A stretch of 56,351 nt of DNA from Nitriliruptorales bacterium (GTDB lineage Bacteria > Actinomycetota > Nitriliruptoria > Euzebyales > Egibacteraceae): the NCBI GenBank assembly GCA_007119035.1, contig SKQL01000057.1:1-56351 (forward strand). Direction: 5' to 3'. This document shows, in pieces, positions 8,309 to 29,735 of this stretch. Below the pieces are notes generated by a model that saw nothing but the letters and a program-made list of their open reading frames with translations, had not been told where the DNA came from and made no database searches. Numbering within the stretch: position 1 is the stretch's first letter; each line of letters starts with the position of its first letter. A program made the position numbers and the translations under genes.

Positions 8309-8422
8309 CCTGCCCGTGACCCTCGCAGCGCAGGAGGATCTCCGCTTGCTAGCGGTACTCGCACCTGCGTAGATTCGGTGCGCGAGCCGACCCCAGCGCC
8401 CGAGCGGATAGGAACCCGAGCC

Positions 8423-9505
8423 ATGCCTGCCCACAAGATCGCGGTACTGCCCGGAGACGGCATCGGCAAGGAGGTGGTGCCCGCCGCCCAGCAGGTGCTG
8501 GACAAGGCCGCGGAGATGTGGGGCTTCGAGCTGACATGGACCGAGTTCCCGTGGAGCTGCGAGTACTTCCGTGAGCACAACCGGATGATGCCCACCGACG
8601 CGATCGATCAGCTGGCCGCGTTCGACGAGGTGTTCCTGGGTGCGGTGGGCGACCCTGCGATTCCCGACCACGTCTCCCTGTGGGGCCTGCTCATCCCGAT
8701 CCGGCGCAGTTTCCGTCAGTACGTGAACCTCCGTCCTATCAAGCTGCTCGATGGCATCCAGAGTGTGCTCCGCGACGTCGCCGAACCGATCGACTTCCTC
8801 GTCGTGCGCGAGAACAACGAAGGGGAGTACTCCGAGGTGGGAGGGCGACTCTACGAGGGGACACCCCAGGAGCTCGCTGTCCAGGAGTCGATCTTCACCC
8901 GGACGGGGGTCGAGCGGGTGATGGAGTACGCGTTCGACCTCGCGGCCGGGCGCGGCGGCAAGGTCGTCTCCGCCACCAAGTCCAACGGCATCATCCACAC
9001 CATGCCCTTCTGGGACCAGATCGGTCGGGAGGTCGCGGCACGGTATCCCGACATCGAGCTCGAGGAGGTGCACATCGACGCGCTGGCGGCACACTTCACG
9101 CTGCGCCCCACGACCTTCGACGTCGTCGTCGCCTCGAACCTGTTCGGCGACATCCTCACCGACCTCGGCGCGGCACTCGTGGGAAGCATCGGCATCGCCC
9201 CCTCCGCCAACCTCAACCCCGAGCGGGCGTTCCCGTCCATGTTCGAGCCCATCCACGGCTCCGCCCCCGACATCGCGGGCAAGGGCGTCGCGAACCCGAT
9301 AGGCCAGATCTGGAGCGGGGCGATGATGCTCGAGCACATCGGCTACCCGGAGGCGGGGGAAGACATCCTCGCGGCGGTGGAGGACGTACTCGCCGGCTCG
9401 CAGGTCCGCACACCGGACCTCGGGGGCACCGCCGGGACCAGCGAGGTGACCGACGCGGTGGTCGCTGCGTTGGAGAGGACGTCGAATCGTCGCGACCGAG
9501 CATGA
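8423..9505 (+). CDS. Tartrate dehydrogenase/decarboxylase or D-malate dehydrogenase family (TtuC/YeaU type)
   Basis: IAVLPGDGIGKEVVPAA, FLVVRENNEGEYSEVGGRLYEGTPQELAVQESIFTRTGVERVM, SNLFGDILTDLGAALVGSIGIAPSANLNP. Confidence 0.88.
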   Translation: MPAHKIAVLPGDGIGKEVVPAAQQVLDKAAEMWGFELTWTEFPWSCEYFREHNRMMPTDAIDQLAAFDEVFLGAVGDPAIPDHVSLWGLLIPIRRSFRQYVNLRPIKLLDGIQSVLRDVAEPIDFLVVRENNEGEYSEVGGRLYEGTPQELAVQESIFTRTGVERVMEYAFDLAAGRGGKVVSATKSNGIIHTMPFWDQIGREVAARYPDIELEEVHIDALAAHFTLRPTTFDVVVASNLFGDILTDLGAALVGSIGIAPSANLNPERAFPSMFEPIHGSAPDIAGKGVANPIGQIWSGAMMLEHIGYPEAGEDILAAVEDVLAGSQVRTPDLGGTAGTSEVTDAVVAALERTSNRRDRA

Positions 9506-10509
9506 ACGGCCCGAGCACGGAGGGGACCACGCCCGAGGCGATCGAGGCGTGGGTGCGCCAGCAAGCTCTTTTTGCGACCGATGCGCCGGTGCGGGTCAGG
9601 CCCCTTCTCGGCGGAGTCTCCTCGGAGGTCTTCGACGTGCAGGCAGGCGACACCCGGATGGTCGTCAAGCGGGCCGGCCCCTACATGCTGACCGACGACG
9701 TGTGGCCGGCCGCACCCCGGCGGGTGGTGCACGAAGGCGAGGTACTGCGGGCGCTGGGCTCACTCACCCCGGGCGCAGTGGCGCCCGTGCTGGCGATCGA
9801 CGAAGGCACCTTCACCATCGCGATGCAGCATGCACCCCCGTCGTGGACGGTGTGGAAGTCGGCGCTGCTCGAGGGGGATGTGGACCCTGGAGTCGGTGCC
9901 CGCCTGGGGTCACTGCTCGGCACCTGGCACCAACGGACGCTGGGCGACGAGCGCTTCTCCCACCTCGACGACTACGAGCTGTTCGAGCAACTACGCCTCT
10001 CCCCCTACCTCACGACGACCGCCCAGCGATGCCCGGGTCAACGGGCGTCCCTGGAAGAGGTCGAGGCGCGGGTCCGCGCGACGAGGACGTGCCTCGTGCA
10101 CGGCGACTTCTCCCCGAAGAACATCCTCCTCGGCGACGAGGGGCTATGGGCCCTCGACTGCGAGGTCGCACACATCGGCGATCCCCAGTTCGACCTCGCG
10201 TTCATGTTGAACCATCTTCTGATGAAGGCCCTGCACCGCCCCGCGTCGAGCGGTGCGTACCGGCTCGTCAGTCAGCAGTTCACCACGGAGTACACCCGCG
10301 CGGCCCCTGACGGGGGGGAGGTGGACGGTGAGCCGCTGTGCGGCCTTCTCGCAGCCCTGCTGCTAGCGAGGGTCCACGGCAAGTCGCCCGCGGAGTACCT
10401 CGACGGGCACGGCAGGGCGCGCGCGGAAGCGCTCAGCACCTGGGCTCTCGAGAGGCACGTCGACGCACTGGACGACATCTGGGACCGCCTGGAGGAGAGT
10501 GCCCCATGA
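9502..10509 (+). CDS. Aminoglycoside phosphotransferase/choline kinase-fold small-molecule kinase
   Basis: LLGGVSSEVFDV, VVKRA, LVHGDFSPKNILL, ALDCEVAHIGDPQFDLAF; ATGA overlaps with both neighbours. Confidence 0.82.
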   Translation: MNGPSTEGTTPEAIEAWVRQQALFATDAPVRVRPLLGGVSSEVFDVQAGDTRMVVKRAGPYMLTDDVWPAAPRRVVHEGEVLRALGSLTPGAVAPVLAIDEGTFTIAMQHAPPSWTVWKSALLEGDVDPGVGARLGSLLGTWHQRTLGDERFSHLDDYELFEQLRLSPYLTTTAQRCPGQRASLEEVEARVRATRTCLVHGDFSPKNILLGDEGLWALDCEVAHIGDPQFDLAFMLNHLLMKALHRPASSGAYRLVSQQFTTEYTRAAPDGGEVDGEPLCGLLAALLLARVHGKSPAEYLDGHGRARAEALSTWALERHVDALDDIWDRLEESAP

Positions 10510-23815: not shown

Positions 23816-24481
23816 CTAGGACTCGCTCACCGGCAGGTCGGCGCGTGCCTGCCTGAGCAACGCCGATACCTCCTCGTCCGAGGTCTGCCCGAAGTTCTGG
23901 TAAGCCTGCCCCACCGCGCGGAACACCGCCGGAGCGTGGATACAGATGACCTGATCGGCTTCGCCCTCCAGGCGCTCGGCGGTCCCACCGGAGCAGACCG
24001 GCACCGCGAGGATCCGGCGACTGGCTCCCCGCCGGGCGAGCGCGCCGAGGGCAGCCCGGGCGGTCACCCCTGTGGCCAGGCCGTCGTCCACGAGGATCGC
24101 GGTCCTCCCCTGTGCGTCGATGCGGTGGGCGACGCCTCGGTACTCCTCAATGCGCTCGAGAAGCTCCTCCCGCGCGGTCGCGGCCGACTCCCGCAGGTCC
24201 TCCACCGTCATACCCGTTGCGGAGAGCAGGCGCGCGTCTAACTGGGGCTCACCTCCCTCGGCGATCGCACCGAGCCCGAGCTCGGGTTGCATGGGGTGGC
24301 CGATCTTTCGCGCGACGAGCACGTCCAACGGCGCTCCGAGAGCACGCGCGACCTCGTAGCCGACCGGCACCCCACCCCGCGGTAACGCGAACACCACCGG
24401 GTCCTCGAGATCGAGGGTGACGAGGCGCTGCGCAAGCTGCCTACCCGCGTCGAACCGATCCTTGAACTTCCCGAATCGCAT
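23816..24481 (-). CDS. Phosphoribosyltransferase family protein
   Basis: RFGKFKDRFDAGRQLAQRL, VFALPRGGVPVGYEVARALGAPLDVLVARKIGHP, AILVDDGLATGVTARAAL PRPP loop. Confidence 0.9.
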   Translation of the reverse strand: MRFGKFKDRFDAGRQLAQRLVTLDLEDPVVFALPRGGVPVGYEVARALGAPLDVLVARKIGHPMQPELGLGAIAEGGEPQLDARLLSATGMTVEDLRESAATAREELLERIEEYRGVAHRIDAQGRTAILVDDGLATGVTARAALGALARRGASRRILAVPVCSGGTAERLEGEADQVICIHAPAVFRAVGQAYQNFGQTSDEEVSALLRQARADLPVSES

Positions 24482-24667
24482 GGGGGCCTCCTCGGTTGCC
24501 TCCCGCACATCGAGATACCCCCGTGCGCCGTCGGCGATGCAACCCCATCCCCGGGGCGGGCCCCGGCCTTTGTCATAGTGCGCATCCCCCGCCTGCGATC
24601 GGGGAATCGGTGAGACCGCCCGGAACGGCCACCCCCTCCGGGACCACTACGAGTCAGGGAGGTCCCC

Positions 24668-25390
24668 ATGTCGGCAATGCAATTCCTAAGGGCCACTACC
24701 GCGCACACACTCGGCTGGACATCGGTGCTCCTCAAGGGGGGGTCGGCCGCGCTCGGCCTGACCGCCTCCGGGCTGTCGCAGGCGACCTCTGCGCTCAAGC
24801 ACCTAGGCCAGCAGGTGGCCCCTGACGAGGAGACCGCCCAGGAGGTGGGCACCGAGGGCCAGGCCGCGGAACAGGCGATACACGCGATCGAGGCGCTGCT
24901 CAAGCAGGTGGACCCCTCTCAGGTGCTCCAAACAGTCCGCGAGCACGTCGATCTGGGGAACCTCCTAGGGACCGAACAGGCCCAAGACACCGCCCAACAA
25001 GCCACCGAACAGGCCCAAGACACCGCCCAACAAGCCACCGACCAAGCCCAAGACACCGCCCAACAAGCCACCGACCAAGCCCAAGACACCGCCCAACAAG
25101 CCACCGACCAGGCCCGCAAACAGGTGCAGGACCCTGCCAAGCAAGCCACGGAGGTAGTCGAGAAGGCAGTGGATCGAGGCGAAGGTGAACAGGAATCGGG
25201 CGAAGATCAGGGCGGCGACGGCCAGGAGGCCGACCAGGAAAGCGGCGGCGGGTTGAAGCAGCGACTCCGCGAGCTCAGCAACCGGGAGCTGGTCGAGTTG
25301 TACGCCCATGAGTCCGAGACGCAGAGCCGTCAGCGTGTCCTGGAGGCGATCGAGGCGGTGGCGAACGAGCGCCGGACGTCGGTCAGTTGA
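24668..25390 (+). CDS. Gas-vesicle-operon leader protein with 11-residue Ala/Gln-rich repeats (LEA group 3-like); uncharacterised
   Basis: First gene of the gvp operon; TEQAQDTAQQA x2 + TDQAQDTAQQA x2; helical C-terminus LRELSNRELVELYAHESETQSRQRVLEAIEAV. Confidence 0.75.
   Translation: MSAMQFLRATTAHTLGWTSVLLKGGSAALGLTASGLSQATSALKHLGQQVAPDEETAQEVGTEGQAAEQAIHAIEALLKQVDPSQVLQTVREHVDLGNLLGTEQAQDTAQQATEQAQDTAQQATDQAQDTAQQATDQAQDTAQQATDQARKQVQDPAKQATEVVEKAVDRGEGEQESGEDQGGDGQEADQESGGGLKQRLRELSNRELVELYAHESETQSRQRVLEAIEAVANERRTSVS
24971..25102 (+). repeat. Four tandem 33-bp repeats (copy 1 = copy 2, copy 3 = copy 4) inside the CDS
   Basis: accga(a/c)ca(g/a)gcccaagacaccgcccaacaagcc at 24971, 25004, 25037, 25070; degenerate fifth copy begins at 25103. 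Confidence 0.97.
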
Positions 25391-25464: not shown

Positions 25465-25887
25465 ATGGCCCTCGCTGCACAGCCGGTCACACGCGCACCT
25501 GCTTCGAGCAGTCTCTACGACGTGCTGGATCTCATCCTGGACAAGGGTCTCGTCATAGACGCGTACGTACGCGTCTCCTTGATCGGCATCGAGATATTGA
25601 CCATCGATGCCCGGATCGTGGTGGCGAGCGTGGACACCTACCTACGCTTCGCCGAGGCCGTCAACCGCCTTGACCTGCGGCAGCAGTCAGACGCCCAGGA
25701 TCTCGGCGACCTCACGAGCGGGATGATGCCCGACGCCGGGGAGGCGGGCGAAGCTGCCGGCGATGCCGCGAAGGGCGCCGCGGAGAGCGCCTTGCCCGAC
25801 AGCCTGCAGAACGCCGCCCAGAAGCTCGGCCTCCTCGACGAGGACGAAGAGGAAGGCGAGGAGCAGGAGCAGTCGGAGGAAGAGTGA
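25465..25887 (+). CDS. gvpA: Gas vesicle structural protein GvpA (with acidic C-terminal extension)
   Basis: [52 protein letters not shown]. Confidence 0.95.
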
Positions 25888-26678
25888 CCGTATCCAGGGA
25901 GAGCGAGCGCGCGGGCCCGGTGACGGACCAGCCCACCGGGGTGTGGGTCTACGGGGTCTGTCCGATGGATGAGGACCTGGACCTCGACACGCTGACCGAC
26001 GACCTGGGGACAGGCCGCATGTGGGCAGTCGAGCAGGACGGCCTGCGCACGGTGGTCGGGGAGGCATCAGAGACGCCCGCGTCTGCCGCGGAGAGCACCG
26101 CGCTGCGCGCCCACCTCCGGGTGCTGGAGGCCCTGCACGCCAAGACCACGCTCGTACCGGCGGCGTTCGGTACGGTGCTGCCCGACGAGCAAGCGATACG
26201 CACCCATCTCCTCGCGGGCAGGGCCGAGGAGTTGCGGCGACTGCTCGAGCGGCTCGCGGGCCGGGTCGAGGTGATCGTGCGGGCGGAGGCCGACGACGAC
26301 GCAGTGGTCGAGACCGTGCTGGCCGAGCATCCCGACATCCGCCAGCAGGGCAGGGGCATCGAGAGCGCGCGCGACCCCATGGCGCGCCTGCGGGGGCGCC
26401 TAGCCCTCGGTGAGCGCGTCGCGGAAGCCGTTGCCGCGCACCAGCGAGCGGTCGCCTCGGCGCTGTTGGAGCGCCTCTCGAGCCACGCGGACGCGGTCGC
26501 TCCCCGCGACGAGGAAGCCCTCACGAGCCTTGACGCCGCCTTCCTGATCGAGGAGGGCCAGCTCGACGTGTTCGATGCCGACGTCGACGAGTTGGCCGCC
26601 GAGCACCCCGGGTGGCGCTTCCGGTCCGTCGGGCCGGCACCTCCCCACCATTTCGTCGATGCGCCCTGGAGCGGCTGA
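25884..26678 (+). CDS. gvpF: GvpL/GvpF family gas vesicle protein
   Basis: [10 protein letters not shown]..., [10 protein letters not shown]-like [14 protein letters not shown]-terminal [11 protein letters not shown]. Confidence 0.88.
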
Positions 26679-26926
26679 TGTTGTTGCGACTTCTCGCCGC
26701 CCCGGTGACCGCGCCGCTGCGCGGGATCCTCTGGATATCCGAGTACGCGGTGGACGAGGCCTACAAGCGTCGCCGGGCCGAGATCCAGGAGGAGCTCGAG
26801 AGCCTGGCGGCCGCACGAGCCGCAGGCACGATCGAAGACGACGACGCAACTGCTCGCGAGGACACGCTGCTCCAGGAGCTCTCAGCGATTCGAGCCCACC
26901 AGGCAAGCAACGAAAGGCAGCACTGA
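26678..26926 (+). CDS. gvpG: Gas vesicle protein GvpG
   Basis: [43 protein letters not shown]; start overlaps gvpF stop. Confidence 0.9.
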   Translation: MLLRLLAAPVTAPLRGILWISEYAVDEAYKRRRAEIQEELESLAAARAAGTIEDDDATAREDTLLQELSAIRAHQASNERQH

Positions 26927-27195
26927 TGGCCACCCCGCAGGCCGCTTCGGACATCATCGGGCAAGCCAAGGAGCAGCTACCGAACCTCATCGGCAAGCCG
27001 GCCGAGTCCGTGTCAGGGATCGAGCGCGCCGAGGACAACGGATGGCGGGTGACCCTCGAGGTACTCGAGCTCGAGCGCATCCCCCCTACGACCGATGTCC
27101 TCGGCACCTACGAGGTGCTGCTCGACGAGGAGGGGACACTGCAGAGCTTCCAGCGCATCTACCGCTACCACCGCAGTCAGGCTACGCGGGAATGA
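26926..27195 (+). CDS. gvpO: Gas vesicle protein GvpO
   Basis: GWRVTLEVLELERIPPTTDVLGTYEVLLDEEGTLQSFQRIYRYHRSQ. Confidence 0.93.
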   Translation: MATPQAASDIIGQAKEQLPNLIGKPAESVSGIERAEDNGWRVTLEVLELERIPPTTDVLGTYEVLLDEEGTLQSFQRIYRYHRSQATRE

Positions 27196-27581
27196 CCGCC
27201 TGGGAACCGCAAGGATCGCCCTTCGGTACGTCTGCCTCCCCCATGGCCGGAGCCGCAGGCATCGCTCCCGCGCCGTCCCCCGCGGGACTCGCGGACGTCC
27301 TCGACCGCATTCTCGACAAGGGCCTCGTGGTGGCGGGCGACATCCGTGTGGACCTCGTCGGGGTGGAGCTCCTCACCATCAAGATCCGGCTGCTGCTGGC
27401 CTCAGCGGACCGTGCCGCGGAGTTGGGCATGGACTGGTGGCGCACCGATCCCTACTTCTCCTCCAAGGCCCTCGCCCTCGAGGAGGAGAACCGGGCACTG
27501 CGTCAGCGCCTCGACCGCCTCGAGGACGCTCTGGAGACATCCAGCGAGGAAGAGGAAGACGAGGACGAGTATGCGGACTAG
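27192..27581 (+). CDS. gvpJ: Gas vesicle protein GvpJ (GvpA/J family)
   Basis: LADVLDRILDKGLVVAGDIRVDLVGVELLTIKIRLLLASADRAAELGMDWW; acidic tail. Confidence 0.9.
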   Translation: MTAWEPQGSPFGTSASPMAGAAGIAPAPSPAGLADVLDRILDKGLVVAGDIRVDLVGVELLTIKIRLLLASADRAAELGMDWWRTDPYFSSKALALEEENRALRQRLDRLEDALETSSEEEEDEDEYAD

Positions 27582-27595
27582 CGAAGGTCGACCGA

Positions 27596-28384
27596 GTGGA
27601 CACTGAGCAGCCACGCGAGCTCTGCTGGGTCTACGGGATCCTTCGTGAGGGTCACCCGATCGCACCCGACATGACGGGTGTGCCGGGCAGCGGCCCGGTG
27701 GAGGCCATCTCGGAGGGCGGCCTCGCAGCTGCGGTGAGCCGGGGCGCCCCGGACACGATGCCGTCGGACGAGGTCCTCATGGACGACAACGAGCGACTGC
27801 GGACCGTCCTGCTCGCCCACGATGCGGTGCAGCGGGCCCTGGTCGAGGATGGCGACGTCCTTCCCACCCGATTCGCGACCGTCTGCACGGAAACGGACGC
27901 GAGATCACTGTTGTCTGCGCATCGACCGACGCTCGACTCGGCGTTCGCGCAGGTGGGCAGCCAGCGGGAATGGGGTGTGCAGATGTTCGTGGGCGCGGGC
28001 TCGGCCCATCACTCCGCCCCACGGCAGAGGAGAGACGCCCCCGGTGCGGGACGTGCGTACCTGGCCGGCAGGCAGGAGCAGGCCCGACAGCGGGGCACCC
28101 GCCATGAACGCGGCAAGCGGTCCAGCGAGGACCTGCACGGGCGCCTTGCATCCGTGGCCACCGCGGGAGTGCGGATCGGCCTGCATGCCCAACACGTCAC
28201 CGGACGCACTGACGAGATGGTCTACAACGCCTCCTTCCTCGTCGCGCGGGAAGCGGAGGACCGGTTCAAGGCGATCGTCACGCGAGCGGGGGGCGCGGAC
28301 ATCACGTGCGTGCTCACCGGCCCATGGCCCCCGCACCACTTCGTCGACCTCGATCTCAGTGGGGATGCGAATGTCCATGCGTGA
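27596..28384 (+). CDS. gvpL: GvpL/GvpF family gas vesicle protein (GTG start)
   Basis: ELCWVYGILREGHPI..., LPTRFATVCTE, GAGRAYLAGRQEQARQRG, CVLTGPWPPHHFVDLDL; GAAGG RBS upstream of GTG. Confidence 0.87.
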   Translation: MDTEQPRELCWVYGILREGHPIAPDMTGVPGSGPVEAISEGGLAAAVSRGAPDTMPSDEVLMDDNERLRTVLLAHDAVQRALVEDGDVLPTRFATVCTETDARSLLSAHRPTLDSAFAQVGSQREWGVQMFVGAGSAHHSAPRQRRDAPGAGRAYLAGRQEQARQRGTRHERGKRSSEDLHGRLASVATAGVRIGLHAQHVTGRTDEMVYNASFLVAREAEDRFKAIVTRAGGADITCVLTGPWPPHHFVDLDLSGDANVHA

Positions 28385-28658
28385 CGGCTTCAACGAGGAG
28401 TCGGTCCTCGACCTGGCGGGGGACGCCACCGTCGTGGACCTCGTCGACCGGCTACTGGACCGGGGTGTCGTCCTCGCGGCCGAGATCACCCTCGCGGTAG
28501 CCGATGTCGACCTCGTCCACGTAAGCCTCCGGGCGCTGCTCGGCACCTCCGACCGAGCCCTGCGCATGAGCGCCGACCCGTCGAGGGACCGCGAGCCGGC
28601 CACGCTGACCACGGAGGGATTGACCGGCTCGCGGGCACCGCTCCCCCGCCATGGCTGA
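28377..28658 (+). CDS. gvpS: Gas vesicle protein GvpS (GvpA/J family)
   Basis: TVVDLVDRLLDRGVVLAAEITLAVADVDLVHVSLRALLGTSDRA; start could also be 28371. Confidence 0.87.
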   Translation: MRDGFNEESVLDLAGDATVVDLVDRLLDRGVVLAAEITLAVADVDLVHVSLRALLGTSDRALRMSADPSRDREPATLTTEGLTGSRAPLPRHG

Positions 28659-29367
28659 GTCCCTCGTGTACTGCTACGCCGTCACGGACGCGGCGCACGA
28701 CCTGGGGGATCTCCGTGGGCTCGACGACGCGCCCGTGCTCGTCCGTTTCCTGGGTGGCGTCCATGCCGCCCTCAGCCGCCACCGCGACCTCGTCCTGGGC
28801 GCGAGCACGGACCAACTCCTCCGGTGCGCGGCCGTCACCGACTCAGCTATGGAGCACGGCAGCGCGGTTCCGTTGCGGTTCGGGACACTCATGGAGGAGG
28901 ATCAGCTCGCCGCGCTCCTTGCGCAACGTGCCGAGGAGCTGAGAGCGGACCTCCACTTCGTGAGGGGCCGTGTCGAAGTCGGGTTGCGTGTGACGAGCGC
29001 CTCGACCGAGGACCCCGCCACCGTCGGATCCCCTGGCCGGATGCCCCGCGGCGATCCGGCCCCGCAACCCGGCGACGGACGTGAGCACATGCGGCGCCTC
29101 CAGCGTCGGGAGCGGGAGTCGACGAGTGCCTCCGAGCTCGCGGCCGACCGGTGCCATGAGCGACTTGCGCAGCACGCGCCCACCCATCGTCTATGGCGGC
29201 GTCCCCGGGAGGGAGTGCTCCTCACCGCCGCGTATCTCGTGGAGCGCGCACAGGTCGACGAGCTTGCCGCGGTCGTCGACGAGCTGGAACGTCATGAGAC
29301 GACCGTCCGGCTGGCGCTCACAGGACCGTGGGCGCCCTACAGCTTCGTGGGTGGGATCGACCGATGA
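28651..29367 (+). CDS. Third GvpL/GvpF family gas vesicle protein
   Basis: LVYCYAVTDAAHD..., AVPLRFGTLMEEDQLAALL, LALTGPWAPYSFVG. Confidence 0.87.
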   Translation: MAESLVYCYAVTDAAHDLGDLRGLDDAPVLVRFLGGVHAALSRHRDLVLGASTDQLLRCAAVTDSAMEHGSAVPLRFGTLMEEDQLAALLAQRAEELRADLHFVRGRVEVGLRVTSASTEDPATVGSPGRMPRGDPAPQPGDGREHMRRLQRRERESTSASELAADRCHERLAQHAPTHRLWRRPREGVLLTAAYLVERAQVDELAAVVDELERHETTVRLALTGPWAPYSFVGGIDR

Positions 29368-29735
29368 ACGAGACAGAGGCTCGTGAGCGGATCGACCGCC
29401 TGCTGGCGGGCCACGACGGGGATCTGCTGGGTCTCGTCACCCAGATGGAGCACACCGCCGGAGGAACACCTGGCCGGATCAACGCCGATCCCGAGAACGT
29501 CGAGCGAGGCCTCGCGCAGCTCGTCCTCACGCTCGTGGAGCTGCTCCGCCAGGTAATGGAGCGCCAAGCCGTCCGCCGCATGGAACGTGGAACGCTGAGC
29601 GACGACGAGGTCGAACGGTTGGGCATCGCCTTCCTCCGCCTCGACCAGCGCATGGAGGAGCTGCTCGCCACATTCGAGCTGGAGCGTGCCGACCTGCAGA
29701 TCCACCTGGGACCGCTGGGCAACCTGCTCGATTAG
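29364..29735 (+). CDS. gvpK: Gas vesicle protein GvpK
   Basis: [64 protein letters not shown]. Confidence 0.95.

Follow-up and report, generated by a model that had tools for sequence, protein, structure and literature searches.

To our knowledge, GvpC is the sole well-established outer stiffener of gas vesicles. It forms an outer helix along the ribs of the vesicle, and each 33-residue repeat spans four copies of GvpA at 1.5 Å per residue (PMC9994262). No GvpC is listed for the gvp cluster of Streptomyces, gvpOAFG-JLSK (PMC9501494). Lipid droplets can be coated by Plin4, a perilipin whose long repetitive helix is devoid of bulky hydrophobic residues; its visible targeting needed at least four 33-residue repeats (PMC8064757). 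Here, we analysed a 56,351-nucleotide stretch of actinobacterial DNA (the window), in which a gas-vesicle cluster is headed by a gene for a repeat protein, hereafter referred to as P1. This protein combines an 11-residue helical array with a C-terminal domain of the lipid-droplet type, and we compare it with the known coat proteins.

The P1 gene and its setting

The gene for P1 begins with an ATG at 24668 and ends with a stop codon at 25388-25390, encoding 240 amino acids. The GC content by codon position, 0.77/0.44/0.79, is similar to that of the neighbouring gvp genes and the frame looks coding. The gene gvpA is located 74 bp downstream and belongs to a complete gvp cluster on the same strand, in the order A-F-G-O-J-F-S-F-K. 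The features of the gene and of the cluster are as follows.

24656-24662, + strand: AGGGAGG, resembling a ribosome-binding site, read directly, 5 nt before the P1 ATG
24668-25390, + strand: P1 gene, 240-residue accessory protein (ORF call, GC by codon position, first gene of the gvp cluster)
24668-24970, + strand: N-terminal helical region, residues 1-101, an orphan with no relative found and low model confidence
24971-25102, + strand: four near-identical 11-residue units, residues 102-145 (TRF, helical moment, shuffles)
25103-25168, + strand: degenerate continuation of the array, residues 146-167 (inspection of units, predicted single helix 103-173)
25163-25246, + strand: acidic Gly/Glu/Gln linker, residues 166-193 (net charge -8, non-helical from residue 174)
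25247-25387, + strand: C-terminal three-helix domain with lipid-droplet/phasin-like motif (HMM E=2.7e-4, NF033649 E=0.029, AF2 pLDDT 87)
25465-25887, + strand: GvpA (PF00741 9.4e-14, NCBIfam GvpA 5.4e-47)
25884-26678, + strand: GvpF/L paralogue 1 (PF06386 5.2e-52)
26612-26926, + strand: GvpG (PF05120 5.8e-11)
26926-27195, + strand: GvpO (PF05800 1.7e-26)
27192-27581, + strand: GvpJ-like GvpA paralogue (PF00741 4.7e-15)
27584-28384, + strand: GvpF/L paralogue 2 (PF06386 1.7e-43)
28377-28658, + strand: GvpS/M-like GvpA paralogue (PF00741 5.1e-13)
28651-29367, + strand: GvpF/L paralogue 3 (PF06386 7.9e-41)
29328-29735, + strand: GvpK (PF05121 9e-34)

The upstream neighbour, an ORF at 23816-24508 that is phosphoribosyltransferase-like by inspection, points the other way, and P1 is therefore the first gene of the cluster. 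Judged from the spacing, P1 is likely co-transcribed with the gvp genes. A scan for sigma-70 promoters found none, and a terminator scan gave one terminator-like site, at chance level. An earlier note on this DNA had placed the gene at 24668-25390 at the head of a gvp operon, and these coordinates check out. Segment 25465-29367 holds three GvpF/L and three GvpA-type paralogues within one cluster. The source genome is 69% complete and comprises 140 contigs that total about 1.9 Mb.

Structure of the 11-residue array

The array consists of two copies of TEQAQDTAQQA followed by two copies of TDQAQDTAQQA, which together give the theme T(E/D)QAQDTAQQA, and a degenerate fifth unit, TDQARKQVQDP, comes after them. 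TRF reports a 33-bp period at 24971-25115, with 4.4 copies and a 97% match. In the protein, identity at a lag of 11 is 0.97 over 44 residues, while it is at most 0.50 at the other lags between 5 and 21. The units are almost identical at the DNA level as well, and we therefore regard the amplification of the array as recent.

The helical moment of the array peaks at 98.2 degrees per residue, which corresponds to an 11/3 helix. One face of this helix is made of T1, A8, A4, A11 and T7; the placing of Ala and Thr on a single face is almost optimal, and shuffled versions of the unit reach the same moment in only 0.015% of cases. A spacing like that of type I antifreeze proteins, TxxxAxxxAxx, was also considered for the array; LEA 11-mers have it as well. 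AlphaFold2 without an alignment predicted, at low confidence, a single helix of 71 residues, 103-173, and a non-helical chain from residue 174. The best 19-residue hydrophobicity window of P1 averages 1.0, and the protein has no clear transmembrane segment.

These results confirm the observation from which the analysis started, an ORF with an 11-mer array, an acidic linker and a helical C-terminus. The tandem units, the degenerate unit and the acidic linker of the earlier note are all present, and its LEA-like 11-mer register and amphipathic helix are borne out by the lag-11 identity and the position of the moment peak. The structure prediction that it proposed for the repeat helix did return one continuous helix, although at low confidence.

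The N-terminal region and the C-terminal domain

Relatives of the N-terminal region were found in none of 397 genomes of the phylum, nor in GTDB contigs, where the search was pattern-based and left out the genome of P1 itself, nor in 80 gvp loci; the occurrence of this region in other actinobacterial gvp clusters, a check named in the earlier note, thus gave nothing in those 80 loci. Matches in the 397 genomes at E values of 0.001-0.008 were unrelated enzymes and ORFs that are not genes. No full-length homologue of P1 was found and its N-terminus has no detectable relatives, so that a single incomplete genome is the only known source of the whole protein.

The C-terminal domain has detectable relatives. 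When the isolated C-terminus was compared with NCBIfam, the sole match was NF033649, LipDrop_Rv1109c (E=0.029), at model positions 158-185, the C-terminal end of the model; the score of P1, 14.4 bits over the C-terminus only, lies below the curated cut-off of 110 bits. NF033649 itself had no match in the genome of P1. A search of the phylum found motif-bearing proteins of about 190-300 residues, some of which carry the motif twice. A first HMM of the motif, in which P1 scored E=4.6e-7, was circular because P1 had chosen its seeds, and it was discarded in favour of two independent HMMs. In the HMM built from motif copies not selected by P1, P1 ranks first with E=0.055. In the HMM built from proteins selected by NF033649, P1 is the first of 17,400 ORFs (E=2.7e-4), and its isolated C-terminus scores 24.8 bits, compared with at most 11.4 bits among 5000 shuffles. 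AF2 with an alignment of 20 sequences predicted three helices with a pLDDT of 87.

Judged from its sequence, the end of P1 is a member of a helical motif that actinobacteria have in the Rv1109c lipid-droplet family and in phasin-like proteins. The likeness to lipid-droplet proteins that the earlier note described is thus upheld by both independent HMMs and by NF033649, and the helical C-terminus that it described agrees with the predicted three helices. The phasin-like protein L147 is colinear with P1 over array, linker and motif, with a conditional E of 2.4e-7 and an E of 0.012 at Z=100000. Helices resembling the 11-mers precede the motif in both L147 and L171, two of the proteins recovered through the motif, and L171 carries ATERTAETARQ/VTEKAAETARQ in the same register as ATEQAQDTAQQ of P1. 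The phasin-like relatives, L147 and L171 among them, match phasin models below cut-off only, and by inspection no recognisable storage-granule genes adjoin them.

Relatives of the motif lie mostly away from gvp clusters. The HMM search for this domain in other actinobacterial gvp clusters, which the earlier note suggested, ended negatively for the genes directly upstream of gvpA: the NF033649-derived HMM found the motif in none of their proteins, and a regular-expression search of gvp loci also found none. A candidate ortholog for the P1 C-terminus, the small YPSH protein located upstream of gvpA in class relatives, was ruled out (2.4 bits). Among solved structures, no relative by sequence stood out for either P1 or the motif. 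For the model of 25247-25387, Foldseek places entries of the Sda antikinase near the top, with an rmsd of 0.8-1.0 Å over 35 residues; this likeness is a lead only, because the E values are 2 or more.

Comparison with known repeat and coat proteins

P1 resembles GvpC in the position of its gene next to gvpA, in its tandem helical repeats, three of which equal the 33-residue GvpC repeat in length, and in its possible place as an outer coat. However, the array lacks the conserved Leu, Phe and Arg needed for binding (PMC9994262), and T, E, D, Q and A are the only residues in its four full units. The array is also less hydrophobic, with a mean of -0.08 compared with 0.26 for the GvpC repeat, and P1 has an extra C-terminal domain. 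The Pfam scan of P1 and its neighbours gave no match to PF01304 (GvpC), and phmmer with the Anabaena consensus GvpC repeat did not find P1; PF01304 was also absent from a search of the genome, which had no positive control. The statement of the earlier note that GvpC is not evident holds to that extent.

The 11-mer theme T-A-x-x-A-x-x-x-A of group 3 LEA proteins (LEA_4, PF02987) is present in P1, but P1 gave no LEA_4 match in Pfam at E up to 1 and differs by its gvp context and its C-terminal domain. With LipDrop_Rv1109c, L147, L169 and L171 it has the C-terminal three-helix motif in common, whereas these proteins have another N-terminus and lie outside gvp clusters, and the score of P1 falls far short of the family cut-off. 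Like Plin4, P1 has a weakly hydrophobic, Thr/Ala-rich 11-mer amphipathic helix and a helical C-terminus (PMC8064757); Plin4 is eukaryotic, however, and its array is far longer, that of P1 corresponding to about 1.5-2 lengths of 33 residues, and P1 has no PAT domain and no detectable homology to it. Neither the perilipin/PAT nor the phasin models of Pfam matched P1, and membership in LEA_4, the phasins or the perilipins is not supported, no Pfam model of these having come above cut-off. The gvp accessory protein GvpQ (NF041670) gave a weak match to residues 72-181 of P1 (E=0.0024), but at 18.1 bits, against a cut-off of 100, and on the repeat region. By the tests run, P1 falls outside GvpC, LEA_4, perilipin and phasin, with one domain in common with a lipid-droplet family and one repeat theme in common with LEA proteins and perilipins.

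Arrays inside and outside other gvp clusters

For comparison we used 80 GvpA loci from GTDB together with class relatives, and arrays were located with a position-specific scan for T/S-A/G-x-x-A/T-x-x-x-A. Matches directly upstream of gvpA were obtained in L068 (Nocardia pneumoniae), L073 (Prauserella endophytica) and L085 (Nocardia amamiensis), in each case in SRPBCC genes. Further matches inside gvp clusters, in the class relatives L028, L030 and L035, fall in SAP-domain or SAP-GvpO proteins. These six loci have the 11-mer register of P1, but their arrays are joined to SRPBCC, SAP or GvpO domains and lack the lipid-droplet motif. The only matches outside gvp neighbourhoods were in L034 and L038, both of which had been chosen for matching P1. 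Among loci not chosen for the repeat, arrays number 5 in gvp neighbourhoods versus 0 outside (p=0.03), an enrichment that is suggestive only.

When the array alone was used to search the 397 genomes of the phylum, 18 genomes matched, 12 of them from one family (f15), and none of these 12 has a GvpO match. Six loci of this type were examined, and each is a non-gvp locus with several 11-mer proteins side by side; 11-mer helices are therefore not specific to gas vesicles. The earlier note had held that homologues mainly away from gvp clusters would speak against its reading. This is partly the case: motif relatives and many arrays do lie outside, while arrays recur inside gvp clusters.

Proposed role of P1

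As a whole, the interpretation given in the earlier note is partly supported. The best single reading is that of a coat protein, because P1 joins an 11-mer helix and a lipid-droplet-type domain within a gvp operon. We tentatively propose, at somewhat short of an even chance, that P1 is an amphipathic-helix accessory protein of the droplet-coat type, recruited to gas vesicles and functionally similar to GvpC. The array would fold into a long, weakly hydrophobic helix on contact with the outer surface of the GvpA shell and would run along the ribs, as GvpC does; at 1.5 Å per residue, three units would cover about 49.5 Å, as much as a single 33-residue GvpC repeat. The three helices at the C-terminus could bring subunits together in pairs or recruit a partner, and the acidic linker could keep coated vesicles at a distance from one another. 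Vesicles would thereby be stabilised and dispersed in an organism with no detectable GvpC. The array is without the residues by which GvpC binds and falls short of the lengths that Plin4 needs for visible targeting, which weighs against tight binding, and we also count against a coat the single incomplete genome with full-length P1 and the motif relatives and many arrays outside gvp clusters.

The main rival is that P1 serves as an assembly factor, bound only transiently to GvpA or to vesicles that are still growing; a similar task may fall to the SRPBCC, SAP-repeat and other helical proteins encoded at this position in other actinobacteria. In other actinobacteria the slot before gvpA is taken by unrelated accessory proteins, namely small helical proteins, GvpO in Streptomyces, or SRPBCC proteins with an acidic tail, for which a pattern count gives about 22 of the 80 loci. 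Accessory Gvp proteins are for the most part minor ones that serve in assembly (PMC9501494). Yet P1 matches no chaperone family in Pfam or NCBIfam, and its array and motif are closer to surface-coat proteins than to chaperones, so that we regard this role as possible but rather doubtful. The fit of the 11-mer to the group 3 LEA register, and the similar arrays away from gvp clusters, would also suit a protectant against drying or osmotic stress that is transcribed with the gvp genes by chance. This is unlikely, given the missing LEA_4 match, the recurrence of arrays of the same register within gvp clusters and a C-terminal motif that is not a LEA feature.

The motif held in common with the Rv1109c family and phasin-like proteins could instead make P1 a putative tether, its C-terminal domain and helix fastening vesicles to a membrane, a storage granule or a lipid droplet; without a clear transmembrane segment, we consider such a tether quite improbable. 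Finally, the near-identity of the units in DNA might reflect neutral slippage in a low-complexity linker, with no specific function for the array, but the rarity of shuffles that reproduce the amphipathic order, and the same register with different sequences in other gvp proteins, make this highly unlikely.

A broader possibility, one we hold with considerable reserve, is that actinobacterial vesicles lacking GvpC are coated by convergent, perilipin-like 11-mer helices on unrelated accessory proteins, P1 being the form with a C-terminal domain borrowed from lipid-droplet and granule proteins; fat droplets and gas bubbles would then have one coat chemistry. Should vesicles be stiffened by such weak 11-mer helices on unrelated proteins, one physical principle would underlie the coats of both vesicles and lipid droplets, and acoustic gas-vesicle engineering would gain a short coat module of a new kind.

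Other proteins near gvpA and with 11-mer repeats

Many actinobacteria (L050, L056, L066, L068, L073, L085, L097 and other loci, at about 8400-10000) have, directly upstream of gvpA, a gene for a polyketide cyclase-like SRPBCC protein whose N-terminus is helical and whose tail is often strongly acidic. In five class relatives (L027:5269-5619, L028:3474-3758, L030:3348-3632, L032:12916-13371 and L035:671-1192), gvpA is immediately preceded by a gene of a small family whose members carry a tandem pair of RYPS(H/L) helical motifs, and the genome of the window has a copy elsewhere, at L174:5954-6472, without gvp genes. Loci L177-L182 represent a conserved non-gvp locus of one actinobacterial family, with adjacent 11-mer proteins, some of which end in a segment resembling an E3-binding domain.

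Proteins with a 'LELGPVALDILGLEVHL' domain, which has no Pfam or NCBIfam match, are encoded at L028:5165-6994, L030:4776-6779, L035:2-667 and L038:3974-5713, mostly with the domain behind SAP domains and repeats. They lie inside or just upstream of gvp clusters in class relatives, while the copy in L038 is away from a gvp cluster. The ORF at L035:2512-4437 has 600 residues and comprises SAP domains, 11-mer repeats and acidic repeats, followed by GvpO. L034:9236-9607 and L035:2-667 are contig ends of one genome, both breaking within 11-mer repeats, and may be the halves of one gene upstream of gvpA.
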